A DNA stretch of 39,329 nt from an uncultured bacterium (GTDB lineage: Bacteria > Desulfobacterota > Desulfobaccia > Desulfobaccales > 0-14-0-80-60-11), in contig CALEAV010000036.1 of NCBI GenBank assembly GCA_937943575.1, forward strand, positions 1 to 39,329, written 5' to 3'. This document shows, piece after piece, positions 16,123 through 39,329 of this stretch (its first letter is position 1; each line of letters starts with the position of its first letter). A program made the translations under genes and the position numbers. The notes under the pieces were generated by a model. The model worked only from the letters and a program-made list of their open reading frames with translations, ran no database searches and was not told where the DNA came from.

Positions 16123-16289
16123 AGGGTCTGGAAGGCATCGCCAAGGGCCAGGGCGGGGGACCCGGGCCTGACACAGGTCAACTTGTTCATTTGATGGGAG
16201 ATTCCGCCACGCCACCTTCAAATTAATGCCGCCGCCCGCCATGTCAATGGGCGGGGGGACAAGGGCCCGGCAGTCCGGTGAGAAAACCC

Positions 16290-16318
16290 TTGCCATCTCC
16301 CGCGGAAAGAAATATAAG
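16290..16318 (+). promoter_or_regulatory. Candidate sigma-70 promoter of the cbiM operon
   Basis: TTGCCA (16290-16295), a 17-base spacer and TATAAG (16313-16318). Transcription would begin near 16325, at the 5' edge of the structured leader. The rest of 16123-16289 shows nothing recognisable. Confidence 0.55.
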
Positions 16319-16324
16319 AAAGGC

Positions 16325-16427
16325 GCAGTGGGGCATGAAGCCCCGCGGTGGACGTCGCAGGTGAAATCACCCGGGCCATGAAGGCTTGCCGCCCCCGGGA
16401 GGGGTGCGGGCCTTCAGGGCCTTTTTT
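16325..16427 (+). promoter_or_regulatory. Structured leader with intrinsic terminator upstream of cbiM (leader A)
   Basis: Hairpin 1 is GGGGC-ATGAA-GCCCC (16330-16344). GGTG-AAAT-CACC (16360-16371) follows. The block at 16371-16385 (CCGGGCCATGAAGGC) can fold as GCC-ATGAA-GGC or serve as the 5' arm of a terminator. In the terminator, GGCCATGAAGG (16374-16384) pairs with CCTTCAGGGCC (16411-16421), one mismatch in 11, followed by TTTTTT (16422-16427). The two folds exclude each other, the hallmark of transcription attenuation. The same 15-base block and layout occur before exbB. The conserved B12-box and core sequences of cobalamin riboswitches were not found. The ligand is unknown. Confidence 0.6.
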
Positions 16428-16474
16428 GTTGCCTGGCGCTGCGGGCACTGAAGGGTAAGGAGGAAGAACAGGGC

Positions 16475-17092
16475 ATGCATATCTCGGAAGGGGTGCTCTC
16501 TCCGGCAGTGCTGGCCGGAGGGGCGGCCCTGACGGCCGCCGGCACCGCCATCGGCCTTAAGAAACTGGACTATGAAGCGATTCCCCGGGTGGCCCTCCTG
16601 TCTGCCGCCTTTTTTGTGGCCACCCTCATTCACGTGCCGGTGGGGCCGGTGGGCCTGCACCTGGTGCTGAACGGGCTGATGGGCCTGCTGTTGGGCTGGC
16701 CGGCCTTTCCCGCCATCCTCATTGCCCTGTTCCTGCAGGCGCTCCTCTTTCAGTTCGGGGGCCTCACGGTCCTGGGGGTGAACACCGTCACCATGGCGGT
16801 GCCGGCAGTGGCCTGCTTTTATCTCTACCGCGGCCTCCTCCGGCGCGGCGGGACCGTGGCCGCGGCAGCCGCGGGGGCCTGCGGGGCTACGGCCATTCTC
16901 CTGAGCGGCCTGCTGGTGGCGGCGGCCCTCCTCTTCACTGGGGAGGGCTTCCTCACGGTGGCCCGGCTGGTGGCCCTGGCCCACCTGCCGGTGATGGCGG
17001 TGGAGGGCGTCATCAGCCTGTTTGTCTTCCAGTTTTTGAAAAAAGTCCGTCCGGAGATGCTGGAGGGAATTTATGGCCCTGGGTCACATTAG
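16475..17092 (+). CDS. cbiM: CbiM/NikM-type substrate-binding membrane protein of nickel/cobalt ECF transporter
   Basis: A 205-residue integral membrane S-component. The diagnostic N-terminus MHISEGVLSP is present: in this family the N-terminal Met amine and His2 coordinate the Co2+ or Ni2+ ion. IHVPVGPVGLHLVLNGLMG and GLTVLGVNTVTMAVPA supply the further conserved histidine and asparagine. About six hydrophobic helices are visible. AAGGAGG lies at good spacing before the ATG. It is the first gene of an operon in which the next gene overlaps its end by 20 bases. The choice between nickel and cobalt cannot be made from sequence alone. Confidence 0.92.
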   Translation: MHISEGVLSPAVLAGGAALTAAGTAIGLKKLDYEAIPRVALLSAAFFVATLIHVPVGPVGLHLVLNGLMGLLLGWPAFPAILIALFLQALLFQFGGLTVLGVNTVTMAVPAVACFYLYRGLLRRGGTVAAAAAGACGATAILLSGLLVAAALLFTGEGFLTVARLVALAHLPVMAVEGVISLFVFQFLKKVRPEMLEGIYGPGSH

Positions 17093-17720
17093 GCACTGGG
17101 TGGCAGCCGCTGTCGGCGCCTTAGTATCGGTGGTGCTGGTCATGGCGCTCCCTGCCCTGGCCCACCGGGTGCTGGTCTTCGCCTTCGTCGAGGGGGACAA
17201 AATCCAGGTGGAGGCCAAATTCGTCCCGGACACGCCGGTGCGCCAGGGGACGGTGCGGGTGCTGGAGGCCACGGCAGGCCGGGAGCTTTTGACCGGCACC
17301 ACCGATGACCAGGGGAGGTTCTCCTTTCCCATTCCGGCGGAGGCCAAAGGGAAGCGGCTGAATCTCCGGATTGTGGTGGAGGCCGCCATGGGGCACCGGG
17401 GCGAGTGGCTGCTGAAGGCGGACACCTATCTGCCCCCGGCCGCGGCGGAGTCCGAGGCCGCCCCGGCGGCGGCTGCCGGGACCCCTGCTCCTGCAGCCCT
17501 GCCCCCTGGCCCTCCCCCCACCCCCGGCCCTTCTCCTGAAGCCCTGGAGGCGGCTCTGCACCGGGCTCTGGAGCGGCACCTGGCCCCCATGAAGGAGATG
17601 CTGGCGGAGCTCTCCCAACGCCGCACCACCCTGCCGGACGTCCTGGGGGGGATCGGCTATATTGTGGGCTTCTTCGGCCTGTGGGCCTACTTCCAGAGTC
17701 GGAGGCGGAACCGTCCGTGA
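17073..17720 (+). CDS. CbiL/NikL-like auxiliary protein of nickel/cobalt ECF transporter
   Basis: A 215-residue membrane-anchored periplasmic protein. An N-terminal signal segment ends MALPALA before HRVLVFAFVEGDKIQVEAKF, so processing would expose an N-terminal histidine, as in NikL/CbiL partners of NikM/CbiM. The following 85 residues look like a carboxypeptidase-regulatory-type beta-sandwich (GTTDDQGRFSFPIP). A Pro/Ala-rich linker (about residues 123-150), an amphipathic helix and a C-terminal membrane span (GGIGYIVGFFGLWAYF) complete it. It overlaps cbiM by 20 bases and cbiQ by 4 bases. In the family this component is needed for metal uptake with the S-component. Confidence 0.82.
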   Translation: MALGHIRHWVAAAVGALVSVVLVMALPALAHRVLVFAFVEGDKIQVEAKFVPDTPVRQGTVRVLEATAGRELLTGTTDDQGRFSFPIPAEAKGKRLNLRIVVEAAMGHRGEWLLKADTYLPPAAAESEAAPAAAAGTPAPAALPPGPPPTPGPSPEALEAALHRALERHLAPMKEMLAELSQRRTTLPDVLGGIGYIVGFFGLWAYFQSRRRNRP

Positions 17721-18505
17721 GCGCCATCCGGGAGCCCTTCTCGGAAGGGGAATCCCTCCTCCACCGCCTGGACCCCCGGGGCAAGGTGGCGGCGGCCGCC
17801 GCCTTCTCGGTGCTGGTGGCCTCCAGCCGCACCTTTGCCACGGCCCTGACCGGCCTCTGTCTGGCGGTGGTCGCCATCCTGTGTGCCCGGCTGCCATGGC
17901 GCAAAGTGGCCGCCCGCCTGCTGGTGGTGAACGGCTTTGTGCTCTTCCTCTGGCTGGTCCTGCCCTTCACCTATCCGGGGGAGGTCGTCTGGCGCTGGCG
18001 GTGGTTCGCCGCCACCCGGGAGGGGCTGGCCGCCGCCGGCCTCATCACCCTCAAATCCAACGCCCTCCTCCTGGGGCTCATCGCCCTGGTGGCCACCGTG
18101 CCCCTGGTGGATCTGGGCCAGGCCCTGCACCGCCTCCGGCTGCCGGACAAGCTCTGCCATCTGCTTTTGTTCACCTACCGCTATCTCTACGTCTTCGAGC
18201 AGGAATACCAGCGGCTCACGCAGGCCATGAAGATCCGGGGCTTCCGGCCCCGCACGGATCTGCACACCTACAGGAGCTATGCCTATCTGGCGGCCATGCT
18301 CCTGGTGCGGAGCCACGACCGGGCCGAGCGGGTCTATCAGGCCATGCTCTGCCGGGGCTTTCAGGGGCGGTTTTACAGCCTGAAGGAGTTTTCCTGGCAG
18401 CCCCGTGACCGTCTCTTCCTGGCCACGGCGGGCCTGAGCCTGCTGGTGCTGGCCGGGCTGGAATGGCTTCTTCCCTGGACCCTCGGGCGGACCGGAGGAG
18501 GATGA
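17717..18505 (+). CDS. cbiQ: CbiQ-type ECF transporter transmembrane (T) component
   Basis: A 262-residue energy-coupling membrane protein. The start is GTG at 17717, in a GTGA overlap with the stop of the preceding gene. HRLDPRGKVAAAAAFSVLVA is the typical opening of CbiQ/EcfT. The two coupling motifs that contact the ATPase are seen as AMKIRGFRPRT and AMLCRGFQGRF (A-x-x-x-R-G pattern), roughly 35 residues apart. Several hydrophobic helices lie before them. It transmits ATP hydrolysis by CbiO to CbiM. Confidence 0.9.
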   Translation: MSAIREPFSEGESLLHRLDPRGKVAAAAAFSVLVASSRTFATALTGLCLAVVAILCARLPWRKVAARLLVVNGFVLFLWLVLPFTYPGEVVWRWRWFAATREGLAAAGLITLKSNALLLGLIALVATVPLVDLGQALHRLRLPDKLCHLLLFTYRYLYVFEQEYQRLTQAMKIRGFRPRTDLHTYRSYAYLAAMLLVRSHDRAERVYQAMLCRGFQGRFYSLKEFSWQPRDRLFLATAGLSLLVLAGLEWLLPWTLGRTGGG

Positions 18506-18506
18506 C

Positions 18507-19178
18507 GTGCACCACATGGAAGGCGACCCCATCATTGCCGTGCAGCACCTCACCTTCCGGTATCCCGGGGCGCCCCGGCCGGTGTTTGAAGACTTCTCCT
18601 TTGAACTTTTGCCGGGCCATCACCTGGGGCTGGTGGGCCCCAACGGCGCCGGCAAGACCACCCTGCTGCACCTGCTGATGGGACTCTTGAAACCCCAAGC
18701 GGGCCGCATCCTCATCTTCGGGAGGGAGGTGAGCACCGAGAAGGACTTCGCCTGGGTCCGGCAGCGGGTGGGGCTGCTCTTCCAGAACCCGGACGACCAG
18801 CTCTTCTGCCCCACGGTGCTGGAGGATGTGGCCTTCGGACCCCTCAATCAGGGGAAGACCAAGGCAGAAGCCGTCGCCCTCGCCCGGGAGACCATGGCAA
18901 AGCTGGGGCTGGAGGGCTTTGAGGAGCGCCTCACCTACAAGCTCTCCGGGGGGGAGAAGAAGCTGGTGGCCCTGGCCACCGTCCTGGCCATGCAGCCGCA
19001 GCTGCTGTTGCTGGACGAACCCACCAGCGGGCTGGACGAAGCCACCAAACTCCGTCTCATTCACATCCTCCAGCACCTGTCCATTCCCTACATGATCGTC
19101 TCCCACGAGCGGGAGTTCCTCAACGAAACCGTCAAGAAATGCTGCCAAGTGCATGCGCATTGCTGTCAACCCGAGTAA
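18507..19178 (+). CDS. cbiO: CbiO-type ECF transporter ATPase
   Basis: A 223-residue ABC ATPase. Walker A is GPNGAGKTT (44-52), the Q-loop is GLLFQNPDDQLFCPTVLEDV (the ECF-specific form), the signature is KLSGGEKKL, Walker B is LLLLDEPTSGLDE, and the switch histidine is in IVSHE. The start is GTG at 18507, preceded by GGAGGAGG at 8 bases; the ATG three codons later is too far away. The protein is shorter than the usual 250-280 residues. Its C-terminus is odd: KKCCQVHAHCCQPE carries four Cys and two His in a symmetric arrangement where relatives have a plain domain. It pairs with CbiQ. Confidence 0.92.
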   Translation: MHHMEGDPIIAVQHLTFRYPGAPRPVFEDFSFELLPGHHLGLVGPNGAGKTTLLHLLMGLLKPQAGRILIFGREVSTEKDFAWVRQRVGLLFQNPDDQLFCPTVLEDVAFGPLNQGKTKAEAVALARETMAKLGLEGFEERLTYKLSGGEKKLVALATVLAMQPQLLLLDEPTSGLDEATKLRLIHILQHLSIPYMIVSHEREFLNETVKKCCQVHAHCCQPE

Positions 19179-27286: not shown

Positions 27287-27314
27287 TTGACAGCGCCATG
27301 TCGCCGGCTATATT
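27287..27314 (+). promoter_or_regulatory. Sigma-70 promoter of the TonB-receptor leader
   Basis: TTGACA (27287-27292), a 16-base spacer and TATATT (27309-27314) give the best promoter in the window, more than 400 bases upstream of the receptor start. The 471-base gap 27257-27727 is therefore a long regulatory leader. Confidence 0.65.
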
Positions 27315-27320
27315 GGTGGT

Positions 27321-27400
27321 CGAAATCCGGGTCGAAGCCCGGGTGTGACGAGAGCCACGAAGGCTGAGCTCCGGGAAGGAGCGGCGTTCGTGGTTTTTTG
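27321..27400 (+). promoter_or_regulatory. Structured leader with intrinsic terminator (leader C)
   Basis: Hairpin 1 is CCGGG-TCGAAG-CCCGG (about 27327-27342). Hairpin 2 can form as AGCC-ACGAA-GGCT (27353-27365). The terminator pairs CCACGAA (27355-27361) with TTCGTGG (27387-27393), with inner GCTCC/GGAGC arms, and is followed by TTTTTT (27394-27399). Hairpin 2 and the terminator compete, as in the cbiM and exbB leaders. Confidence 0.55.
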
Positions 27401-27559
27401 TTGGTGGGCTCACGGCCGGACGGCACCGGTTGCGGCTCCGACGCCGGCGAGCGGTTCGGGCCGGGATGCCGCGGGCGGACGACCGCCTGCCGCCCGGGCG
27501 GGGGGCCCTGGATAGCCGGCACCTGACGCCCTGGTGTTCCCGGGGGTAAACGTCTTACA

Positions 27560-27606
27560 GCCACGGAGGCCGCCTCCCGGAAGGGGAGGGCACGTGGCTT
27601 TTTTTT
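27560..27606 (+). terminator. Second intrinsic terminator in the TonB-receptor leader (leader D)
   Basis: GCCACG (27560-27565) pairs with CGTGGC (27593-27598), and inner CCTCCC pairs with GGGAGG (27584-27589). Eight T residues follow (27599-27606). The 5' arm can also fold as GCC-ACGGA-GGC. It lies about 120 bases before the receptor ATG. The 160 bases between the two terminators are very GC-rich, may be structured, and encode no gene. Confidence 0.65.
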
Positions 27607-27727
27607 CTTCTCGCTTGTGGAACTGCTCACACGGCCTACACTTGGAGCGGGGAAGACCGCCAGGCAGCGGCTTCGGGGAAGGAAGCCCCAGGAACAAGAG
27701 ACCAGAGGGGAAAGGAGAGACACGACC

Positions 27728-29761
27728 ATGGCCTGGCCTTTCATGATTCGGGGGTTTATTTTCTGTGTCCTGTGTATCCTGAGCCTGGCGGGACGGGGCT
27801 GGACCCAGGAGGCGCCGGCGGCGCCGCCCTTTGAAATGCCGGAGCTGGCGGTCACGGCCCACAAGTCGCCCCAGCCGGTGCAGGAGGTCACCCAGCGCCA
27901 CGACCTCATCACCTCCGAGCAGATCGAGGAGATCCCCTTGGGGCAGCGCAATCTGGCGGAGATCTTCAAATACCAGCCTTCCACCTTTGTGAACCCCCTG
28001 TCCCGCAACGACGCCAACTGGGGCTCCTATGGCGGCCTGGGGCCCAAATACAACGTCTATCTGCTGGATGGCCTGCCCATCGACTCCTTTGTGGATCCCA
28101 TGAGCCTGGACGCCATTTACCTGGAGAGGGCTGAAATCCAGCGGGGCCCGGCCTCCATCATGTACAGCAATTACCTGAGCATGGACTTTGCCGGGAACCA
28201 GACGGCGCTGGCGGGTATTGCCAACCTCATCACCAAGGAGCGCATCGATGCCCCCCAGACCCGCATCCTCGGCGGCTACGGCAAGTGGAACACCTTCCTG
28301 GGCAAGCTCTACCACCAGGGGAATGCCGGGAATTTTCATTACTTCCTGGGGACCAGCTACGAGCAGTCCGACTACACCAACTATGGCACCCCGAATTCCT
28401 GGCTCAACATGATCGACAAGCCGGAATACCGCAAAATCAAGGCCTATGCCAAGGCCACCTATTTCTTCACCCCGGAGACCAGGCTCTCCCTTTTCGGACA
28501 TCACACCATGCATGACGGCGATGCGGGGCGGCCCAACCGGGGCTTTGACCACCAGTATGATCTCCTCAACCTCGCCTTCGAGAGCAGGCTTACCCCGGCC
28601 CTGACCCTGGGGGCCAAGGCGGGCTACCGCTACTACAACCGCACCTGGGAGGAGGACAACTTTCCCGCCAGCCTGGCTTTGCGCTCCACCGACGGGGTGC
28701 GCCAGCACATCTTTCCCCTGGACTTTGCCCTCTCCTTCCGGCACTGGGGCAGGAGCCTCCTCACCTTCGGCACGGACCACCAGTTCATGACCTACAAGAC
28801 CTTTTCTGAAGTGGCCGGCCTGCGGAACTACTTCAACGACGTGGACGCCCGGCTGCACGGGGTATATCTGGAGGAGAAGCTGGTCCTGGGGAACTGGGTG
28901 CTCCGGGCCGGGGTGCGCTACGCCCACACCCACCATGACTATGACCGGGTGAGCGGCACGGTGCCGGCCCAGCGCAGCCGCTCCTGGGACCGGGTGCTGT
29001 GGAGCACCGGCATCCGCTACAATCTCTCCCCCCGCTTTGCCCTCTTCGCCAATGCCGGCTCCAGCTATGTGGTGCCCTCGGCCAAATCCGTGGCCGGCAC
29101 CATCCCGGCCAGCGACTTCGGGGTGCCCGGCCGCCACGGCCAGCTGCCCAACCCCGGTCTCAGCCCGGAGAGCGGCATCAGCACTGATTTCGGCGCCGTG
29201 GCCTGGGTCCTCCCCCACCTCAGGATCGGCATCCGGGGGTTTTACACCCGCCTGGATGACGCCATCGTGGAGAATGTGGTGAGCCGGGATCCCTCCCAGA
29301 CCCAGTCGGTCAACGCCGGCAAGGTGGATGCCGGCGGCTTTGAAATCGACCTCATCCACCCCTGGCACAAGAATTTCCATTGGTTCGCCAATGCCACCTA
29401 TACCCAGACCAATGTGAAAAACTCCCTGGATCCCCGGCAGAGCAACAGCGATGTCCCCTTTGTGCCCAAATGGATGGCCAATGTGGGCTTCACTGCGCAT
29501 CTGCCCTATGATGTCACCGTCTCCCCGTACTTCCAGTACATCGGGCACTATTTCGACACCACTGACAAGTCCTCCCGGCGGCGCTTCGGCAGCTATGTCA
29601 CCGTCAATGCCAAGGCCGGCAAGAGTCTCTACAAGGCGCCCCGCTTTGAGTGGCTGGCCAACGTGGAGATCGTCAACCTGTTCAACCGCCGCTATGAGAT
29701 GCCCTGGCAGTTCCGGGACGTGGGCTTCCAGGCCCTGGGGAGCCTGGAGTTGCGGTTTTAG
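27728..29761 (+). CDS. TonB-dependent outer-membrane receptor
   Basis: A 677-residue gated barrel. A signal peptide (MAWPFMIRGFIFCVLCILSL) is followed by a TonB-box-like segment (FEMPELAVTAHK) and the plug domain (ITSEQIEEIPLGQRNLAEIF, YNVYLLDGLPIDSF, AIYLERAEIQRGPASIMYSN, GIANLITKE). A 22-strand-type barrel ends in FQALGSLELRF with a terminal Phe. GRPNRGFDHQYD, GVRYAHTHHDYDRVSG and VPSAKSVAGTIPASDFG are typical extracellular or periplasmic barrel segments, some His/Asp-rich. The ATG at 27728 is preceded by AAAGGAGAG. The substrate is unknown; the ABC genes downstream suggest a metal chelate or corrinoid. Expression is probably controlled by the two leader terminators. Confidence 0.92.
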   Translation: MAWPFMIRGFIFCVLCILSLAGRGWTQEAPAAPPFEMPELAVTAHKSPQPVQEVTQRHDLITSEQIEEIPLGQRNLAEIFKYQPSTFVNPLSRNDANWGSYGGLGPKYNVYLLDGLPIDSFVDPMSLDAIYLERAEIQRGPASIMYSNYLSMDFAGNQTALAGIANLITKERIDAPQTRILGGYGKWNTFLGKLYHQGNAGNFHYFLGTSYEQSDYTNYGTPNSWLNMIDKPEYRKIKAYAKATYFFTPETRLSLFGHHTMHDGDAGRPNRGFDHQYDLLNLAFESRLTPALTLGAKAGYRYYNRTWEEDNFPASLALRSTDGVRQHIFPLDFALSFRHWGRSLLTFGTDHQFMTYKTFSEVAGLRNYFNDVDARLHGVYLEEKLVLGNWVLRAGVRYAHTHHDYDRVSGTVPAQRSRSWDRVLWSTGIRYNLSPRFALFANAGSSYVVPSAKSVAGTIPASDFGVPGRHGQLPNPGLSPESGISTDFGAVAWVLPHLRIGIRGFYTRLDDAIVENVVSRDPSQTQSVNAGKVDAGGFEIDLIHPWHKNFHWFANATYTQTNVKNSLDPRQSNSDVPFVPKWMANVGFTAHLPYDVTVSPYFQYIGHYFDTTDKSSRRRFGSYVTVNAKAGKSLYKAPRFEWLANVEIVNLFNRRYEMPWQFRDVGFQALGSLELRF

Positions 29762-29945
29762 GCAGGACAGGGCGGGGGAAAAGGGGCTTGCAACCCTCTC
29801 CGGCACCCGGGGGCGGCCGGGTCCATGGGGGCCTGCCGCCCCTCAGAGCTTGCGCCTTGTCGGGCGACAGGATATGGTGAGCAGGAAAGGGGGGCGCCAG
29901 ACGGCCTGGCGTCCCCGACGCCCGTTTCCCCAGTGTCCACCAATC

Positions 29946-30959
29946 ATGCCCACCGGGAAAAGCCTTGTGCTCCTGGCCCTGCTGTGGGCTGCCTTGCCGG
30001 CGGCCGCGGCATCCCCCCCTTCTGACCCCGCCCCGGTGACCGTCACCGACTTCCGGGGCCGCACCCTCACCTTCCCCCGGCCGGTGAGCCGCATCGTCTG
30101 CCTCATCGAGAGCGCCCTGAGCGGCCTTTATATGCTGGGGGCCGAGGACCGGGTGGTGGGCGTCTCCGCCAACGTCTATCAGGAGCCGGTCTTTCCCTAC
30201 TATGCCCGGCTGGACGGCCGCATCGCCGCCCGGACCCTGCCGGCCCCGGGAAACTGGGACTTTATCAGTGTGGAGCGGGTCCTGGCCCTCAAGCCCGAGG
30301 TGGTCATCCTCTGGGCCCAGCAGACGGAGGCCATCGCCGCCCTGGAGAGCCGGGGGGTGCCCGTCTTCGGGGTCTTTCTGGCCACCCTGGCGGAGGTGGC
30401 CGGGGAGATGCGGGAGCTGGGCCGCCTCACGGGCACCGAGGCCCGGGCCGCCGAGCTCCTGGACTGGACCGGGCAGGAACTGGCCCGAATCTCCCGTCGC
30501 CTGACGGGCCTCCGGCCCGAGGAACGCCCCCGGGTCTATTTCATGTGGGCCCAAAGCCCCCTGGAGACCTCCGGGGGCACGAGCACCGTCCAGGACCTCA
30601 TCGAGCTGGCGGGGGGCCGCAATCTCTTCGCCCACCTCCCCCGGGAGCACCTGCGGGTGAAGCAGGAGGAGCTGTTGGCGGCCAATCCCGAGGTCATTAT
30701 CATGTGGCACAATCCCCGGCTGAAGCCGGTGGACATCCTGGCCCTGCCGGCCTGGCAGGGGCTGGCCGCCGTGCAGACCCGGCGGGTGCATGAGCTGCCC
30801 CCGGTCTTCCTATGCGACCTGTGGACCCTGAAGTATGTCCACGCTGTGAAACTGGCGGCCGCCTGGCTGCATCCCCGCCGCTTTGCCGACCTGGACCTGG
30901 CGGCGGAGGAAAAGAGGATGTTGCAGGTCCTCTACCGGGGCCGGCTGGGGGGGCCCTGA
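29946..30959 (+). CDS. Periplasmic substrate-binding protein of a FecB/BtuF-type ABC transporter
   Basis: A 337-residue type III binding protein (single-helix hinge). A signal peptide (MPTGKSLVLLALLWAALPAA) precedes VTVTDFRGRTLTFPRPVSRI, the characteristic family opening. SALSGLYMLGAEDRVVGVS, NWDFISVERVLALKPEVVIL and GVPVFGVFLATLAEVAGEMR make the first lobe; GGTSTVQDLIELAGGRNLFA, EELLAANPEVIIMWHN and VHAVKLAAAWLHP make the second. The GVFLATLAEV stretch recalls molybdate-binding MolA as well as iron/cobalamin proteins, so the ligand is open. The 184 bases upstream hold a weak promoter-like pair (TTGCGC 29850, TATGGT 29873) and a strong hairpin (29891-29916). Confidence 0.87.
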   Translation: MPTGKSLVLLALLWAALPAAAASPPSDPAPVTVTDFRGRTLTFPRPVSRIVCLIESALSGLYMLGAEDRVVGVSANVYQEPVFPYYARLDGRIAARTLPAPGNWDFISVERVLALKPEVVILWAQQTEAIAALESRGVPVFGVFLATLAEVAGEMRELGRLTGTEARAAELLDWTGQELARISRRLTGLRPEERPRVYFMWAQSPLETSGGTSTVQDLIELAGGRNLFAHLPREHLRVKQEELLAANPEVIIMWHNPRLKPVDILALPAWQGLAAVQTRRVHELPPVFLCDLWTLKYVHAVKLAAAWLHPRRFADLDLAAEEKRMLQVLYRGRLGGP

Positions 30960-31966
30960 TGGGCTGGGGAAAGAGTGTGCTTCTGGTGGGTCTGCCGGTG
31001 GCGGCGGGGGGAGTGTCGCTTTTGGTGGGGCCGGCGGAGGTGGCCGGTGTCCGGGAGACCCTGGCTTACCTTTTGGGGGCCGCCGGCCTCGGCCCCGGGG
31101 CGGCCCCGGAGCGGGCCCAGCTTCTTGGCACCGTCCTCTGGGAGGTGCGCCTCCCCCGGGTGCTCCTGGCCCTGGTGGTGGGCCTGGCCCTGAGTCTTTC
31201 CGGCGCCGCCCTCCAGGCCCTGTTCCGCAACCCCCTGGTGGCCCCGGAGGTCCTGGGGCTGAGCGCCGGCGCGGCCGCAGGGGCTGCCCTGGCCCTGGCC
31301 CTGCCGCCGCTGCCGGTGCACCTCACCGCCTTTGTGGGGGGCGCCGCGGCGGTGGGCCTCACCTACGGCATCGCCTACGCCCGCCAGGGCGTCTCCATCA
31401 CGGCCCTCATCCTGGGCGGGGTCATCGTCAACGGCATCTTCACGGCGCTGCTCACCATCATCCAGTTTCTGGCCGACCCTTTCCGCCTGCAGACCATCGT
31501 GCAGTGGACCATGGGCAATCTGCACACCGCCACCTGGGACAAGGTCCTCTCCGCCTCGCCCCCCATCCTGGCCGGAAGTGCCCTGCTGCTTTTGGGGCGC
31601 TGGCGCCTCAACGTCCTGGCCCTGGGGGAAGAGGAGGCCCGGGCCGTGGGGGTGCATCCGGAGCGCGCCAAGCTCCTCATCCTCCTCCCCGCCACCCTGG
31701 CGGCCACCTCCGCGGTGGCGGTGGCGGGCATCATCGCCATGGTGGGCCTGACCCTCCCCCATGTGGCCCGGCTGCTGGTGGGAGCCGACAACCGCCGCCT
31801 GCTGCCGCTGACGGCCTCCCTGGGAGCCCTCTTTCTGGTGGTGGTGGACAACTGCTCCCGCACCCTGGCGGCCTTTGAGCTGCCGGTGGGCATCTTCACC
31901 CTGCTCATCGGCGGGCCGGGGTTCATTGTGCTCCTGCGTCTGAAGCTTTTGCGAGGGGCCCTGTGA
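30959..31966 (+). CDS. FecCD/BtuC-type ABC transporter permease
   Basis: A 335-residue inner-membrane permease with about ten hydrophobic segments. VRLPRVLLALVVGLALSLSG and ALQALFRNPLVAPEVLGLSA are hallmark sequences of the FecCD family. ITALILGGVIVNGIFTALLT and MVGLTLPHVARLLVGADNRR (the coupling-helix region contacting the ATPase) also fit, as does VDNCSRTLAAFELPVGIFTL near the end. The start overlaps the stop of the binding-protein gene (TGATG), so translation is coupled. Confidence 0.93.
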   Translation: MGWGKSVLLVGLPVAAGGVSLLVGPAEVAGVRETLAYLLGAAGLGPGAAPERAQLLGTVLWEVRLPRVLLALVVGLALSLSGAALQALFRNPLVAPEVLGLSAGAAAGAALALALPPLPVHLTAFVGGAAAVGLTYGIAYARQGVSITALILGGVIVNGIFTALLTIIQFLADPFRLQTIVQWTMGNLHTATWDKVLSASPPILAGSALLLLGRWRLNVLALGEEEARAVGVHPERAKLLILLPATLAATSAVAVAGIIAMVGLTLPHVARLLVGADNRRLLPLTASLGALFLVVVDNCSRTLAAFELPVGIFTLLIGGPGFIVLLRLKLLRGAL

Positions 31967-32736
31967 CCGCCGTCAGGGTGGCCTCCCTGAGCTTCGCCTA
32001 CCGCCGGCGGCCGGTGCTGCAGGAGCTTGACTTTGAGCTCGAGGGGGGCTCCCTCACCGCCATCCTGGGGCGCAACGGCAGCGGCAAATCCACCCTGCTG
32101 CGCTGCCTGGCGGGGCTCCTGCCCGTGGCGCCCGGCACGGTGGCGGTGGCCGGGCAGGACCTGGCCCGTCTCTCCTGCCGGCAGCGGGCCCGGCTCATCG
32201 GCTATCTGCCCCAGTTTCACCAGCCGGCCTTTGATTTCGCCGTGGAGGAGGTGGTGCTCACCGGCCGGGCCGCCTGGGTGGGGCTGAGCCCCGGGGATGA
32301 GGACCGGCGCCGGGCACGGGCGGCTTTGGCCCACCTGGGCATCAGCCATCTGGCCCCCCGCCCTTACACCGAGCTGTCCGGCGGCGAACGGCAGCTGGTG
32401 CTCCTGGCCCGCATCCTGGCCCAGGACCCGCCGGTCATCCTGCTGGACGAACCTCTGTCCCATCTGGATCTGTGCCACCAGGTGCAGCTCCTTGGGCTTC
32501 TGCAGGAATTGAGCCGGCAGGGCCGCACGGTGGCGGCGGTGCTCCATGACCCCACCCTGGCCCTGCGGCATTTCCACCGCCAGCTCTACCTTCGGGACGG
32601 GCGCCTGCTTTTGCCCTCCGGCCCGCCGGAGGCCGGGTTTCTCTCCCACATCTACGAGACGCCGGTGGAGGTGCTGACGGGCGCCGCCGGGCCGGTGGTG
32701 GTGCCTAAGGCCGGGAGCGCCGGGGAGAGGTCTTGA
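31963..32736 (+). CDS. FecE/BtuD-type ABC transporter ATPase
   Basis: A 257-residue ATPase. Walker A is ILGRNGSGKSTLL, the Q-loop is YLPQFHQPAFDFAVEEVVLT (the FecE form), the signature is ELSGGERQLVLLAR, Walker B is VILLDEPLSHLDL, and the switch His is in AAVLHDPTLA. GTG at 31963 overlaps the permease stop by 4 bases. The stop codon (32734-32736) lies within the -35 hexamer of the promoter for exbB, so the two transcription units abut. Confidence 0.93.
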   Translation: MTAVRVASLSFAYRRRPVLQELDFELEGGSLTAILGRNGSGKSTLLRCLAGLLPVAPGTVAVAGQDLARLSCRQRARLIGYLPQFHQPAFDFAVEEVVLTGRAAWVGLSPGDEDRRRARAALAHLGISHLAPRPYTELSGGERQLVLLARILAQDPPVILLDEPLSHLDLCHQVQLLGLLQELSRQGRTVAAVLHDPTLALRHFHRQLYLRDGRLLLPSGPPEAGFLSHIYETPVEVLTGAAGPVVVPKAGSAGERS

Positions 32737-32761
32737 CGCCGCAGGTTTAACGGGATAAAAA
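32733..32761 (+). promoter_or_regulatory. Sigma-70 promoter of the exbB-exbD-tonB unit
   Basis: TTGACG (32733-32738), a 17-base spacer and TAAAAA (32756-32761). The -35 element overlaps the stop codon of the ATPase gene. Transcription would begin near 32768. Confidence 0.55.
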
Positions 32762-32767
32762 ATCTGC

Positions 32768-32853
32768 TAATCGGTGGATGAACCACCGCCGGCAGGTGTT
32801 GATCCCCGACAGCCGGGCCATGAAGGCCGATCCCGGGCCTCATGGCCTTTTTT
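32768..32853 (+). promoter_or_regulatory. Structured leader with intrinsic terminator upstream of exbB (leader B)
   Basis: Hairpin 1 is CGGTGG-ATGAA-CCACCG (32772-32788). CCGGC and GCCGG (32811-32816 region) can enclose the middle. The block 32813-32827 (CCGGGCCATGAAGGC) is identical to 16371-16385. GGCC-ATGAA-GGCC (32816-32828) can fold alone. Alternatively GGCCATGAAGGCC pairs with GGCCTCATGGCC (32836-32847), with one bulged A, followed by TTTTTT (32848-32853). The exbB ribosome-binding site follows immediately, so termination would remove the whole unit. Confidence 0.62.
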
Positions 32854-32867
32854 ATGGAGCCAGCCCC

Positions 32868-33542
32868 ATGGACATTCTGACCAAAACCCTCCTGGAGATC
32901 ACCCTGGGCGGCAGTTTCTGGGTCCTGGCCCTGCTTCTGTGCCTCAGTGTGGCCTCGGTGGCGGTGATGTTGGAGCGGGCCTGGGTCTTCTTCGGGCATC
33001 TCTATGACGAACCGGCCTTTCTGGCGGTGGTGACCCCCCTGTTGCGCCAGCAGCGCTGGGGGGCAGCCCTGAAACTCTGCCAGGAGAGCAAGGCCTTTGA
33101 GACCCGGGTGCTGGCCGCCGGGCTCCAGGAGGTGACGGGGGGCCGGCCGGCGGTGCAGGAGGCCATGGAGGCGGAGCGCCTGCGGCTGGGCCTCCTCCTG
33201 GAGAGGCGCCTGGGATTTCTCGGCACTTTGGGCGCCAACGCCCCCTTCATCGGCCTGTTGGGCACCGTGCTGGGCATCATCCACGCCTTCAAGGACCTGG
33301 CCCTGGCGGAGGGGGGCGGGGGGCCCGCGGTCATGGCCGGCATCGCCGAGGCCCTGGTGGCCACCGCGGTGGGCCTCTTGGTGGCCATCCCGGCGGTGGT
33401 CATGTACAACTTCTATCACCGCCGGGTGCATCTCGTGCTGGAGCGCTCCCGGGTGCTGTCGCACCTCCTCCTGGGCCATCTGGAGGCGGGGGGGGCGGCG
33501 GCAATCCAGACCGCCCCCCGGCAGGCAGGAGGCCGGTTATGA
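32868..33542 (+). CDS. exbB: ExbB/TolQ-type proton channel protein
   Basis: A 224-residue MotA/TolQ/ExbB-family protein with three membrane spans: one near the N-terminus (FWVLALLLCLSVASVAVMLE) and two in the second half (FLGTLGANAPFIGLLGTVLG and GIAEALVATAVGLLVAIPAV), separated by a cytoplasmic helical region. With ExbD it couples the proton gradient to TonB. The ATG at 32868 has GGAG at 8 bases. An upstream in-frame ATG at 32778 would place 30 residues inside the attenuator and is unlikely. It overlaps exbD by 4 bases. Confidence 0.92.
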   Translation: MDILTKTLLEITLGGSFWVLALLLCLSVASVAVMLERAWVFFGHLYDEPAFLAVVTPLLRQQRWGAALKLCQESKAFETRVLAAGLQEVTGGRPAVQEAMEAERLRLGLLLERRLGFLGTLGANAPFIGLLGTVLGIIHAFKDLALAEGGGGPAVMAGIAEALVATAVGLLVAIPAVVMYNFYHRRVHLVLERSRVLSHLLLGHLEAGGAAAIQTAPRQAGGRL

Positions 33543-33934
33543 AAGGTCCCACCCACGGACCCATCACTGAGATCAACATGACCCCCTTGGTGGACATCGT
33601 GCTCGTCATCCTCATCATCTTCCTCATCACCGCCACGGTCATGCTGCCCCGCACCTTCTCCATCGCCCTGCCCCAAGCCACTCAGGCGGAAAAACTGGAG
33701 AGCACCCCGGTCATCGTGAGCCTTGACCGGGAGGGCAGGATCGCCATCAACGGCCGCCGCCTGGAGCACGACGGGGAGTTTGAGGCGGTCTTCCGGGCCC
33801 AGCCCCAGGGGAGGGAATCCCTGGCGGTCATCGCCGCGGACAAGGAGGTGCGGCACGGCCGCTTGATTGAGGTCATCGACCGGCTGCGGGCCCTCAAAGT
33901 GCAGCGCCTGGGCATCGAGGTGGAGCAGCCCTGA
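33539..33934 (+). CDS. exbD: ExbD/TolR-type protein
   Basis: A 131-residue single-span protein. The conserved motif EINMTPLVDIVLVILIIFLI carries the functional aspartate (D19) in the membrane span. The periplasmic domain (VIVSLDREGRIAINGRRLE, VIAADKEVRHGRLIEVIDRL) is typical. It starts in an ATGA overlap with exbB, showing translational coupling, and is followed 2 bases later by tonB. Confidence 0.94.
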   Translation: MKGPTHGPITEINMTPLVDIVLVILIIFLITATVMLPRTFSIALPQATQAEKLESTPVIVSLDREGRIAINGRRLEHDGEFEAVFRAQPQGRESLAVIAADKEVRHGRLIEVIDRLRALKVQRLGIEVEQP

Positions 33935-33936
33935 GC

Positions 33937-34758
33937 ATGGGTGCGCTGGGGCCGCATCCGGGAGGGGGGGAGGACTGGCGGGTCTGGCCGGCGGCGCTGG
34001 CCGGCTCCCTGGCCCTCCATGTGCTCCTTTTGGCCGGGACAACCTGGTGGCGGGGCGGCCCCCCTCCCAAAACCCGCCAGGTGGTGCCCATTGAGGCCAT
34101 TCTCCTGACCCAGATGTCTCCGGGACCGGCGGGCGGCGGCGGCACCCCGGCGGGCCCGGCGGCGGAGAAGGAGGCTCCTCAACCGCCCGCCCCTCCGCCC
34201 CCTCCCAAACCCCAGGTGAAGCCCCGGCCGCAGGTCAAAAGGCCGCCTGAACCGCCGCCACCCTTGGCCCTGCCCCGGCCTGGGGCCCCCCCGGCCCTTG
34301 CTCCCAAAGCAGCCCCGCCGGCGCCCGCCGAGCTCACCGCCCGGGCCGGGGGCTCTGTGGCTTCCGGAAGCGGCGGAAGCACAGGGGGGAGCGGCGGGGG
34401 CACGGGGGGCGGCCACGGCCCCGGCAGCGGCACCGGGGTGGGGGCCGGTATGGGCACGGGCAACCCCCTGGCCGCCTACCTGCAGGAGGTGCGCCGGCTT
34501 CTGGAGCGCCACAAGGAATACCCCCTGCTGGCCCGGCAGATGCATCTGGAGGGGGTGGCGGTGGTCCAGTTCACCATTGCCGCGGACGGCCGCCTGGAGG
34601 GGGCCGGCCTGAAACGCTCCTCCGGCCACGGGCTCCTGGACCAGGCGGCTCAGGACACGGTGCGCCGGGTGGGCCGCTTCCCGCCGCTCCCCCCCGCCCT
34701 GGGCCGGGACCGCCTGGCCTTGGCCATCCCCATCTCCTTCCGCCTCCTGGACCGCTGA
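33937..34758 (+). CDS. tonB: TonB energy transducer
   Basis: A 273-residue protein. An N-terminal membrane anchor (ALAGSLALHVLLLAGTTWWR) precedes a long Pro-rich segment (PPAPPPPPKPQVKPRPQVKR, about residues 85-115) and a Gly/Ser-rich spacer (SGSGGSTGGSGGGTGGGHGP, about 145-180). The C-terminal domain follows (YLQEVRRLLERHKEYPLLAR, EGVAVVQFTIAADGRLEGAG, LDQAAQDTVRRVGRFPPLPP). The long Pro/Gly spacer fits a periplasm-spanning transducer. It completes the TonB system that would energise the receptor upstream. Confidence 0.93.
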   Translation: MGALGPHPGGGEDWRVWPAALAGSLALHVLLLAGTTWWRGGPPPKTRQVVPIEAILLTQMSPGPAGGGGTPAGPAAEKEAPQPPAPPPPPKPQVKPRPQVKRPPEPPPPLALPRPGAPPALAPKAAPPAPAELTARAGGSVASGSGGSTGGSGGGTGGGHGPGSGTGVGAGMGTGNPLAAYLQEVRRLLERHKEYPLLARQMHLEGVAVVQFTIAADGRLEGAGLKRSSGHGLLDQAAQDTVRRVGRFPPLPPALGRDRLALAIPISFRLLDR

Positions 34759-34982: not shown

Positions 34983-35045
34983 TGACCGGGGATGTCCGGT
35001 TGCTCATCACTCACCGACAGGTTCAACCCAGAAAAAGGAGAAGCC

Positions 35046-37529
35046 ATGTCCTTCGCCCGCTTTCGCCGCCGCGCCGCTCCGTGGCTCCTGCTGCCGCTCG
35101 TTGCCGGGCTGCTCCTCACCGGGGTGCCCGTGCCGCCGGCCCGGGCCCAGGTGGAGCCCCCGCCTTTTCCCATTCAGACGCCGGAGGATGCCCGGGCCTG
35201 GGGGTTTGACTCCCTGGGCCGCATGATGTCCGGGCAGATGCCGGGGTATCCCAAACCCCACGGCCAGCCGTTGGTCCTCAACCCCGCTTATAAGGTGCCT
35301 CTGCCACCCAATCTGGGGGAGTTCGTCAAGAACCGGCAGGCCGCCCTGGCGTTGGGCAAGGCCCTCTTCTGGGACATGCAGGTGGGCTCCGACGGCATCA
35401 TGGCCTGCGCCACCTGCCATTTTCAGGCCGGGGGGGATGTGCGCCCCACCAACCAGGTGGCCCCGGCGGGCAATCAGGTGAGGTATGAGCGGGACACCGG
35501 CCCCTTCAGCGAAGTCATCGGCTTTTTCAATGCCGGCCGGACCGGCTCCGATACCTTCGAAACTGTGTTCGGTCGGACTTGGGCGGCAAATTTTGAGCTG
35601 GCAGGGGAGGACTTCCCCCTGGTTCTCAAGCAGAATGCCTTCCTGCCCGCCACCCCCGTCTTTGGGGACATCATCGCTGCGGACCCCGCCAGCGGCAACC
35701 GCAACGACGTGGTGGGCTCCATGGGTCTGATGACGGGCACCTTCGCGGGGGTCACCCCGGGCAGCCCGGTGGATCTCTTCTCCGGCTCCCTGGGTACCAT
35801 GCGCCAAACCACGGCCAGAAACGCCCCGTCTTCGGTCAACGCGGTCTTCAACCTCTTCCAGTTCTGGGACGGCCGGGCCCACCCCAGCTTCAACGGCGCC
35901 AACCCGGTGGGGCCCTTCTCCCGGCCGACCCCCAAGTATTTCACTTATAAAAACGGCAAGATCCAGTCCAAGGTGCTGCAGATGCAGATGGCCTCCCTGG
36001 CCTCCCAGGCCACCGGGCCGCCCCTAAGCGACGTGGAGATGTCCTTTGCCGGCCGCACCTGGCCGGAAATCGGCAAGAAGCTGACCCGAGGTGGGCTGAT
36101 GCGGCCCCTGGCTTACCAGGAGGTGGCGGCGGAGGACAGCGTCCTGGCCTCTTACCGGCATTCCTCCGGGAAAGGCCTGAACAAAACCTACAAGGAGCTG
36201 GTCCAGGCCGCCTTCCGGGATGAGCTCTGGAACGCCCCGGACAGTCTCGCCTTCACCTTCCCCCAGGGCAAACTGGTGCGCACCACCACAGATGAGCTGA
36301 TCTTCCTCCCCGGGGAGGTCCAATTCCTTCAGGCCAAGGCCACCAAGGGCAAGGGCGGCACCAAGCCGCCCCCCGGCTACACCCTGATGGAGGCCAACTT
36401 CGCCCTTTTCTGGGGCATTGCGGTGATGCTCTATGAAGCGGAGCTGGTCTCCCCCCAAAGCCCCTTTGACCGGTGGATGGAAGGGAATGGCGCCTTCGTG
36501 GAGGGGTTCGGGCCAAAGGAGCTGGACGGCCTCAACGTCTTTGTGGGCGCCGGCAAGTGCATCGCCTGCCACAGCGGTCCGGAGTTCACCAACGCCACGG
36601 TGCGCAACACCCAAAACGGCCGGGAGCAGATCGAGCCGGTCATCAGGCTGGACGGCACCCCGGCCTTCTATGACAACGGCTTCTACAACGTGGGCATCAC
36701 CCCCACGGTGGATGACCTGCTGCGGGGCGCCGCCGGTCCCGGCAACCTCCCCTGGGGGTCGGCGCGGCAGTTCCTCTTCCAGAAAAACGGCATCCAGAAC
36801 ATCCCCTTTCCCATCATGGGGCTGCCCATCGGCAATCTGACCCCGGGGACCTGCACCGGGCTGGATGCCAACGGCAAATGCATCGGCACCTTCACCCCGG
36901 ACCCCGCTTCTTCCCAGCTCTTTGCCCTGGCCGAGGATCCGGACCTGGGACCCATCCACTTCCTGGTCTGCACCGACCTGGATGGGGACGGCAGGTGCGG
37001 CCTCAATGATGACATCGTCATCAAGGCCCTGGACATGGACGGCAATGCCAAGGCGTCCAGCCTGCGCAATGTGGAGCTGAACGGCCCTTATTTCCACAAC
37101 GGCGGCGCCGCCACCCTGCAGCAGACCCTGGATGAGTACGACATCGGCGGCAAGTTCAACCGGGCCTTCCTCAACCGGGTGGACATGCTGCCGGATATCG
37201 CGCCCCTGGGACTGGGCGACCTCACCACGCCCCAGGGCTTTAACGCCGAAGAGGCCCTCATCGCCTTCCTCCTGGCCCTCACCGACCCCAACGTGAAAAA
37301 GGAGGCCAAGCCCTTTGACCATCCCCAGCTTTTCATCCCCATTGACGGCACTGCGCCCATCCTGGATGTGTCTCAGCCGGATTGGAACGCCTGGCTGAAG
37401 AGCAAGCCCCTGTGGTTCCGGGAATTGCCGGCTACCGGGAAGGACGGCGGGGCGGAACTCCAGACCTTCCTTTACCTGGACCACTTTGAAGGGGACACGG
37501 GCAAGGGGCCGATCATCGAAAATCCGTAA
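35046..37529 (+). CDS. Large di-heme cytochrome c peroxidase (MauG/CCP)-like protein
   Basis: An 827-residue exported protein with a signal peptide (basic MSFARFRRR, hydrophobic core, PPARA). Two c-type heme sites are seen: CATCH (residues 121-125, in GKALFWDMQVGSDGIMACAT context) and CIACH (about 505-509, in GAGKCIACHSGPEF). The bacterial CCP C-terminal block is present (SSLRNVELNGPYFHNGGAAT, LQQTLDEYD). Classical CCPs are about 330 residues; here the hemes are 380 residues apart. A Ca-binding-like loop TDLDGDGRCGLNDD (about 643-656) is inserted. It would reduce peroxide or oxidise a partner in the periplasm. The start has AAAAAGGAGAAGCC before the ATG. Confidence 0.88.
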   Translation: MSFARFRRRAAPWLLLPLVAGLLLTGVPVPPARAQVEPPPFPIQTPEDARAWGFDSLGRMMSGQMPGYPKPHGQPLVLNPAYKVPLPPNLGEFVKNRQAALALGKALFWDMQVGSDGIMACATCHFQAGGDVRPTNQVAPAGNQVRYERDTGPFSEVIGFFNAGRTGSDTFETVFGRTWAANFELAGEDFPLVLKQNAFLPATPVFGDIIAADPASGNRNDVVGSMGLMTGTFAGVTPGSPVDLFSGSLGTMRQTTARNAPSSVNAVFNLFQFWDGRAHPSFNGANPVGPFSRPTPKYFTYKNGKIQSKVLQMQMASLASQATGPPLSDVEMSFAGRTWPEIGKKLTRGGLMRPLAYQEVAAEDSVLASYRHSSGKGLNKTYKELVQAAFRDELWNAPDSLAFTFPQGKLVRTTTDELIFLPGEVQFLQAKATKGKGGTKPPPGYTLMEANFALFWGIAVMLYEAELVSPQSPFDRWMEGNGAFVEGFGPKELDGLNVFVGAGKCIACHSGPEFTNATVRNTQNGREQIEPVIRLDGTPAFYDNGFYNVGITPTVDDLLRGAAGPGNLPWGSARQFLFQKNGIQNIPFPIMGLPIGNLTPGTCTGLDANGKCIGTFTPDPASSQLFALAEDPDLGPIHFLVCTDLDGDGRCGLNDDIVIKALDMDGNAKASSLRNVELNGPYFHNGGAATLQQTLDEYDIGGKFNRAFLNRVDMLPDIAPLGLGDLTTPQGFNAEEALIAFLLALTDPNVKKEAKPFDHPQLFIPIDGTAPILDVSQPDWNAWLKSKPLWFRELPATGKDGGAELQTFLYLDHFEGDTGKGPIIENP

Positions 37530-39061: not shown

Positions 39062-39329
39062 TTTTCAATCCTCGCCCGGTATTGCTACCGGGCGCTACGC
39101 GCATGCGGGTGACCCCATGAAACCAGCTAGTATCAGTTTCAATCCTCGCCCGGTATTGCTACCGGGCGCTACGCCAGTGCGGGTCCAGGCCCCCAGCTAT
39201 ATCGTGCGTTTCAATCCTCGCCCGGTATTGCTACCGGGCGCTACGCCTGCCGGTGCGGATGAGGTCACAATGCTCCAGGACGTTTCAATCCTCGCCCGGT
39301 ATTGCTACCGGGCGCTACGCCTGCCGGTG
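39062..39329 (-). CRISPR. CRISPR array, leader-distal end (4 repeats, truncated by window)
   Basis: Four repeats of 37 bases at 39062-39098, 39136-39172, 39208-39244 and 39282-39318, with spacers of 37, 35 and 37 bases and 11 bases of a fourth. Each repeat begins GTTTCAATCC on the plus strand and contains 9-base palindromic arms CGCCCGGTA and TACCGGGCG around TTGC. Read on the minus strand the repeat ends ATTGAAAC, the crRNA 5' handle seen in several type I and III systems, so transcription is probably leftward from a leader beyond the window. The first repeat differs at its first base (T for G), as expected of a degenerate terminal repeat. All repeats are followed by GC, so the unit could be 39 bases. 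No cas gene is in the window. Confidence 0.95.

Follow-up and report, generated by a model that had tools for sequence, protein, structure and literature searches.

The window, by which we mean the whole stretch of 39,329 nucleotides that was analysed, carries a nickel/cobalt transport operon and, further downstream, exbB-exbD-tonB, which adjoin genes for a TonB-dependent receptor and a FecCD-type ABC importer. The genes concerned are the following:

16475-17092, plus strand: CbiM/NikM, substrate-binding subunit of a Ni/Co ECF transporter (Pfam PF01891, 9e-56; NCBIfam CbiM)
17073-17720, plus strand: NikL-family nickel/cobalt ECF transporter subunit (NCBIfam NF058648, 4.9e-52)
17681-18505, plus strand: CbiQ/NikQ (Pfam PF02361)
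18507-19178, plus strand: CbiO/NikO ATPase (Pfam PF00005)
27617-29761, plus strand: TonB-dependent outer-membrane receptor (NCBIfam TIGR01783, 1e-31, under the family cut-off)
29451-30959, plus strand: periplasmic binding protein (Pfam)
30812-31966, plus strand: FecCD permease (Pfam)
31963-32736, plus strand: ABC ATPase (Pfam)
32868-33542, plus strand: exbB, with a likely ATG start at 32868 (Pfam PF01618)
33539-33934, plus strand: exbD (NCBIfam TolR/ExbD)
33937-34758, plus strand: tonB (NCBIfam TonB)

An 845-residue protein resembling di-haem cytochrome c peroxidases (MauG) is encoded directly 3' of exbB-exbD-tonB (34992-37529), and four CRISPR repeats (Rfam CRISPR-DR9) lie on the minus strand at 39062-39318, at the extreme end of the contig.

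Three leaders in this region share one plan, consisting of a promoter, a 5' hairpin (H1), a linker of variable length and a second hairpin (H2) embedded in a terminator 5' arm:

16290-16318, plus strand: promoter-like boxes of the cbiM leader, TTGCCA-17-TATAAG (10/12 consensus positions)
16321-16427, plus strand: cbiM leader, upstream of the cbiM/nikM operon
16328-16346, plus strand: H1 of the cbiM leader, GUGGGGC-AUGAA-GCCCCGC (from folding and covariation)
16375-16385, plus strand: H2 of the cbiM leader, GCC-AUGAA-GGC, a putative antiterminator hairpin that overlaps the terminator 5' arm
16373-16427, plus strand: intrinsic terminator and U-run of the cbiM leader, mutually exclusive with H2
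27287-27314, plus strand: promoter-like boxes of the TonB-receptor leader, TTGACA-16-TATATT (11/12 consensus positions)
27322-27400, plus strand: third leader, upstream of the TonB receptor gene at 27617
27325-27344, plus strand: H1 of the third element, AUCCGGGU-CGAA-GCCCGGGU
27354-27364, plus strand: H2 of the third element, GCC-ACGAA-GGC
27351-27400, plus strand: terminator of the third element
27512-27603, plus strand: degenerate tandem copy, GCCACGGAGGC ... CGTGGCTTTTTTT, with no clear H1 (21.1 bits, E 0.025)
32733-32761, plus strand: promoter-like boxes of the exbB leader, TTGACG-17-TAAAAA (9/12 consensus positions)
32764-32853, plus strand: exbB leader, upstream of exbB-exbD-tonB
32772-32788, plus strand: H1 of the exbB leader, CGGUGG-AUGAA-CCACCG
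32817-32827, plus strand: H2 of the exbB leader, GCC-AUGAA-GGC
32815-32853, plus strand: terminator of the exbB leader

A sequence-only reading of this DNA had described an attenuator-like leader before cbiM that shares a block of 15 bases and a fold with the leader of exbB. The block, CCGGGCCATGAAGGC, indeed occurs exactly at 16371-16385 and 32813-32827, with no other exact copy in the genome, and the attenuator plan with competing H2 and terminator folds was seen in both leaders. With up to 2 mismatches the same block has 149 genome matches, so that the 15-mer alone is not diagnostic. Five hairpins of the window combine an ATGAA loop with at least 4 stem pairs, and four of them are H1 (loops at 16335 and 32778) and H2 (16378 and 32820) of the cbiM and exbB leaders; the ATGAA loops reported earlier are thus present, but they represent one form of a less strict loop that ends in GAA. 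In these two leaders, H1 starts within about 10 bases of the promoter-like boxes and is followed by the linker and H2. The promoter claimed before cbiM was only partly recovered: boxes close to consensus start at 16290, but a stricter scan of 16200-16480 returned no promoter. As a relative (G002) carries two intact H2-terminator copies in tandem, 196 bp apart, the degenerate copy at 27512-27603 may be decaying.

The folds of the cbiM and exbB leaders, with H1-like hairpins and the terminator, gave z = -2.9 and -3.6, respectively, against shuffles. The terminator form was more stable than the form in which H2 was enforced, by 8.2 kcal/mol for cbiM, 14.5 for the TonB receptor and 8.5 for exbB, and H2 is the fold available before the terminator 3' arm is transcribed. 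For the exbB leader, H1 was missing from the lowest-energy fold of a shorter stretch and present with a longer one.

A pattern search showed that relatives carry like leaders in front of their cbiM and exbB genes, and a first covariance model (R1) was built from 14 of these. R1 had matches in 29 of 29 genomes of the order, which are all the sampled genomes of the class, with up to 9 copies per genome; one single-contig genome of the order (G024) has nine elements. Because R1 missed the third element of the window and misaligned distant H1s, a curated set was used for a second model (R2), which covers mainly five-base H1 loops. Scanning named genomes for H2 plus a terminator, a pattern that misses variant terminators, gave at least 120 loci, with Desulfobacterota, Nitrospirota, Firmicutes and spirochaetes among the matches listed; the Firmicutes among these were Thermovorax, Sporomusa ovata, Phascolarctobacterium, Acetatifactor and Alkalibaculum. 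The pattern was present in 34 of 198 Desulfobacterota genomes (16 families). One of the positive genomes (G187, contigs C147 and C183) has H2-terminator sequences identical to those of G012, a genome of another family; its two elements are probably cross-contamination of the MAG. An Anaerolineae locus (L285), with no H1 by eye, no R2 match and no CooT or DUF3842, is probably a false match, and matches of a loose ATGAA pattern in viral contigs were left out as chance matches.

Comparison of these leaders showed that H2 is near-invariant, GCC-A[U/C]GAA-GGC, with a five-base AUGAA or ACGAA loop in 96 of about 100 cases, the two being equally frequent. H1 loops end in GAA and mostly have 4-6 bases (ATGAA, AAGAA, ACGAA, TGAA, CGAA, ATTGAA), the sequence of the H1 stem is free and the linker between the hairpins ranges from about 18 to 59 nt, mostly 25-40. 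Conserved letters are therefore limited to the loops, [N]NGAA in H1 and A[U/C]GAA in H2. A reading of the loop ATG as the start of a short upstream peptide was dropped: the loops are often AAGAA or CGAA, and hence hold no conserved start codon.

Covariation was found in the H1 stem and between the H2 loop and the terminator. In an alignment of 51 sequences with a five-base H1 loop, double-sided changes occurred at all five H1 pairs, stem positions took up to six pair types each, and 98% of the H1 cells could pair, a percentage that is partly by construction since the rows were picked for having an H1 hairpin, while the pair diversity is not. The entire structure scored 0.599 on these 51 sequences; shuffled versions reached 0.208, and slid versions no more than 0.137. 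Among 121 elements chosen without H1, 47 had a GAA-ending hairpin (stem of at least 5) 15-75 nt upstream; as controls, the other 63 loop endings gave a mean of 1.0, and intervals further upstream gave 9 and 4. The variable base of the H2 loop covaried with the terminator 3' arm (C-G 69, T-A 42, T-G 10 and C-A 0, the search pattern permitting all four), indicating that the H2 loop pairs inside the terminator and that the two folds are mutually exclusive.

Over the leaders, no family of Rfam 15, including NiCo, cobalamin and Moco, reached its gathering cut-off, and ranking by E-value gave weak unrelated matches far under the cut-off. At 16 loci of other taxa, all Rfam matches lay in other parts of the locus, namely one tRNA and two cobalamin riboswitches. 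The earlier proposal of a new element that is no cobalamin riboswitch fits these results, and neither a lack of covariation, nor a lack of recurrence, nor a strong Rfam match, each of which the sequence-only reading had counted as fatal to it, was what we found. A Desulfobacterota locus also showed a sub-threshold match to the cspA thermoregulator (L148, 1895-2281, plus strand; 38.3 bits for a cut-off of 78). A literature search, with subscription journals mostly beyond reach, found no description of such an element, and a survey of nickel in cable bacteria that deals with TonB receptors and NikMLKQO makes no mention of a riboswitch (PMC11247825). As far as the literature searched goes, the RNA element is undescribed.

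The genes around 217 elements were grouped by ORF clustering, some clusters being named by profile search and others by eye. NikM/CbiM was found at 74 loci, TonB-dependent receptors at 58, CbiO at 50, CbiQ and NikL/NikK-type proteins at 35 each, ExbB at 26, ExbD at 21, TonB at 20, a porin-like protein at 21, DUF3842 at 17, a secreted tetrapyrrole-methylase-like protein at 16, oligopeptide-type binding proteins at 14 and CooT at 12. The metal-uptake genes expected downstream are thus there, the element preceding NikM/CbiM, TonB receptors, ExbBD-TonB and the DUF3842-cooT operon; judging from these genes, the regulon is one of nickel uptake, and possibly of cobalt uptake too. We consider it almost certain that the leaders form a genuine terminator-based regulatory RNA family of metal uptake.

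Several members of the regulon deserve mention in their own right. In the genome from which the window comes, one element (G000:C47:17350-17488, L463) lies before ORFs of 753 and 1021 residues, the latter resembling CobN by eye, and another (G000:C2:42056-42133, L223) is followed by an ORF that resembles TonB receptors and by a binding protein of the oligopeptide type. Genes for large chelatases that look CobN-like by eye, accompanied by a Mg-chelatase-like partner, stand behind the element in L463 and on the minus strand of L218, downstream of 5200; the arrangement looks as though CobN homologues had a part in taking up nickel or cobalt. The tetrapyrrole-methylase-like proteins (PF00590; ORF cluster C10, e.g. 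L293, L207, L208 and L216) recur in the regulon with an apparent signal peptide, and a periplasmic SAM-dependent methylase would be odd. In Nitrospirota and Desulfobacula (L305, L309, L340, L362) the first gene behind the element encodes a class I methyltransferase, possibly part of a metallophore pathway.

The distribution of the element was compared with that of CooT, DUF3842 and the nickel regulator NikR. NikR controls nikMNQO/nikKMLQO-type operons in Desulfobacterota (PMC545781); it has the same physiological job and target class as the element, but it is a DNA-binding repressor, and the element occurs almost only in genomes without it. In Desulfobacterota, CooT was present in 33 of 34 genomes with the element and 83 of 164 others (p = 5e-8), and NikR in 2 of 34 versus 86 of 164 (p = 2e-7), both by Fisher tests that ignore kinship; one of the two NikR-positive genomes is G187, where the elements are likely contamination. 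For DUF3842, the counts in the tested Desulfobacterota draw were 23 of 24 element-positive genomes and 11 of 29 others. These 11 pattern-negative genomes with DUF3842 served as a prediction, and R2 recovered the element in 10 of them (G042 has DUF3842 and no element match), compared to 1 of 18 genomes lacking DUF3842 (G175, where the element precedes cooT) and none of 12 genomes with NikR. Outside Desulfobacterota, genomes with a pattern match had DUF3842 in 22 of 26 cases and CooT in 16 of 26, one match being probably false. There were also exceptions: seven element-positive gut Firmicutes and spirochaetes have DUF3842 and no CooT, G236 and G175 have CooT and no DUF3842, and a genome that is 99% complete (G225, two element matches), a partial genome (G065) and a MAG (G246) have the element and neither protein. 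Neither protein alone therefore explains all cases, and single cases are affected by MAG incompleteness and contamination.

DUF3842 and cooT are adjacent genes, which share a few bases in L327 and L340, and cooT is a member of the regulon in several genomes, usually beside DUF3842. The element stands directly 5' of DUF3842-cooT in Sporomusa ovata (L470) and in G200 and directly before cooT in L467 and L468, and a second Sporomusa DUF3842 gene (L471) has its own element upstream. Autoregulation, as in the Sporomusa arrangement, is common for antiterminators. In the genome of the window, DUF3842 and cooT lie on another contig (C13:5552-6137), and no element was seen adjoining them.

The small gene of the regulon was identified as CooT (PF10133) by a profile match (E 1e-23), an N-terminal Met-Cys and an invariant Cys2. 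Its product matched 6fan with 48% identity and Z = 12.7; the only clear matches of the fold search were CooT entries, followed by RimM and ATP-synthase epsilon at Z of about 4-5, which are functionally uninformative. The COG containing CooT presumably bears an old 'predicted RNA-binding' label, which was not used as evidence. The CooT homodimer of R. rubrum takes up a single Ni, bound through Cys2 with a Kd of 9 nM, and the protein is described as a Ni-binding CODH accessory protein whose function is unclear (PMC6006190). No RNA role for CooT was found reported in the literature searched. A strain of Clostridium autoethanogenum with cooT deleted is available (PMC10230548). The DUF3842 protein of the regulon (PF12953) was assigned by profile match (E 2e-32; E 2.9e-56 for the copy in the genome of the window, C13:5552-5935). 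Its predicted model (pLDDT 89) is Rossmann-like, with a best fold match at Z = 9.0 over 120 residues (rmsd 4.0) and many ties; structure searches of this model recognised no RNA-binding fold, and no paper on DUF3842 was found within the reachable literature.

We propose that, by default, the nascent leader would fold into the intrinsic terminator and transcription would stop after about 80-105 nt. A trans-acting factor would recognise the two GAA-loop hairpins, H1 at the 5' end and H2 as the earlier of two alternative folds, and by holding H2 would keep its strand from the terminator, allowing RNA polymerase to read through. At low nickel the factor would capture H1 and H2, and at high nickel it would be released or inactive; for a regulator of importers, activity is to be expected at low nickel. 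DUF3842 and cooT together encode the best candidate for the factor; proteins of the CooT family are small homodimers. Twin hairpins with a variable linker would suit a two-headed reader such as a homodimer, which could be CooT, DUF3842 or a complex of both. We infer here the identity of the RNA-binding protein, nickel as the signal and the direction of control. That the signal is nickel rather than cobalt or a corrinoid is probable, and the full account, in which a DUF3842/CooT-linked factor captures the twin hairpins at low nickel, has in our view an even chance of being correct. DUF3842 and CooT may both be simply members of the regulon, and the role of CooT in CODH maturation counts against the antiterminator account.

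Conservation limited to the loops, the variable linker, co-occurrence with DUF3842/CooT and exclusion of NikR favour protein-dependent, nickel-linked antitermination over a direct riboswitch, in which the GAA-loop hairpins themselves would bind Ni2+, Co2+, a metallophore or a corrinoid intermediate and DUF3842 and CooT would be members of the regulon. We consider this second reading unlikely, though it deserves serious attention, chiefly because G225, at 99% completeness, has element matches and neither protein; G065 and G246 are accounted for in the same way, and the spread across several phyla agrees with it. Small twin-hairpin aptamers also have a precedent in guanidine-II (mini-ykkC), in which two small ACGR-tetraloop hairpins are separated by a variable linker, the loop letters alone are conserved and the loops form C-G pairs with each other. 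The element resembles guanidine-II in its twin small hairpins, linker and loop-only conservation, but has mostly five-base loops and precedes metal-uptake instead of guanidine-export genes; as the second base of the H1 loop is free (A, U, C or G), a loop-loop C-G pair of this type is not general. So few conserved letters, a linker of such variable length and a free H1 stem offer little for a pocket binding an ion or a small molecule, and the very tight co-occurrence with DUF3842 argues against this reading as well. The NiCo (czcD) riboswitch, a multi-helix junction aptamer before efflux genes, likewise exerts RNA control over nickel/cobalt transport genes, whereas the element consists of two simple hairpins before importers and has no Rfam match.

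The twin loops might also be read by a third or general RNA-binding protein, e.g. of the CsrA type, with DUF3842 and CooT acting as upstream nickel traffickers. Each of the two proteins is missing from some element-positive genomes and structure searches recognised no RNA-binding fold in DUF3842, in line with this view, but among gene clusters lacking a transport or enzyme assignment no other was found beside the elements about as often, and we regard such a protein as rather unlikely. An ANTAR system is very improbable. ANTAR-target leaders (eut, nas, ami) have the same overall plan, with twin hairpins of similar loops, the second in the terminator 5' arm, both presumably captured by a dimeric factor, and with regulons of several operons, and some six-base H1 loops of the element do carry A1 and G4 (AUUGAA, AAUGAA). 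However, ANTAR leaders have A1/G4 hexaloops and serve nitrogen metabolism, while the element has [N]NGAA and A[U/C]GAA loops, mostly of five bases (five in H2), and serves Ni/Co uptake; its linker of mostly 25-40 nt contrasts with 5-12 in the eut RNAs of E. faecalis (PMC3369931). ANTAR proteins (PF03861) were absent from all six genomes of the order searched, G024 included, and from several others, so that the element, although similarly built, is not an ANTAR system in the genomes tested, as had been argued from loop type in the earlier reading. Constitutive terminators with chance hairpins of common GC-rich motifs, which the many mismatched copies of the 15-mer might suggest, are refuted by covariation, unbiased H1 enrichment, conservation across phyla and the coherent regulon, and have a negligible probability.

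In sulfate reducers and related anaerobes, NikR is the basis on which the regulation of nickel is understood, and it is absent from 110 of the 198 sampled Desulfobacterota genomes, more than half. The element is a candidate for replacing NikR where it is missing, and it offers a regulon for unassigned TonB receptors and binding proteins together with testable roles for DUF3842 and the Ni-binding CooT. Tentatively, and at somewhat less than even chances, CooT and DUF3842 could constitute a nickel-sensing, RNA-binding antiterminator, a second type of twin-hairpin system unrelated to ANTAR, which would take over from NikR as the chief regulator of nickel uptake across anaerobes of several phyla and would explain the function of CooT. 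If confirmed, antitermination by twin GAA-loop hairpins would represent a nickel-responsive RNA antitermination system and would provide a portable Ni-regulated genetic part.
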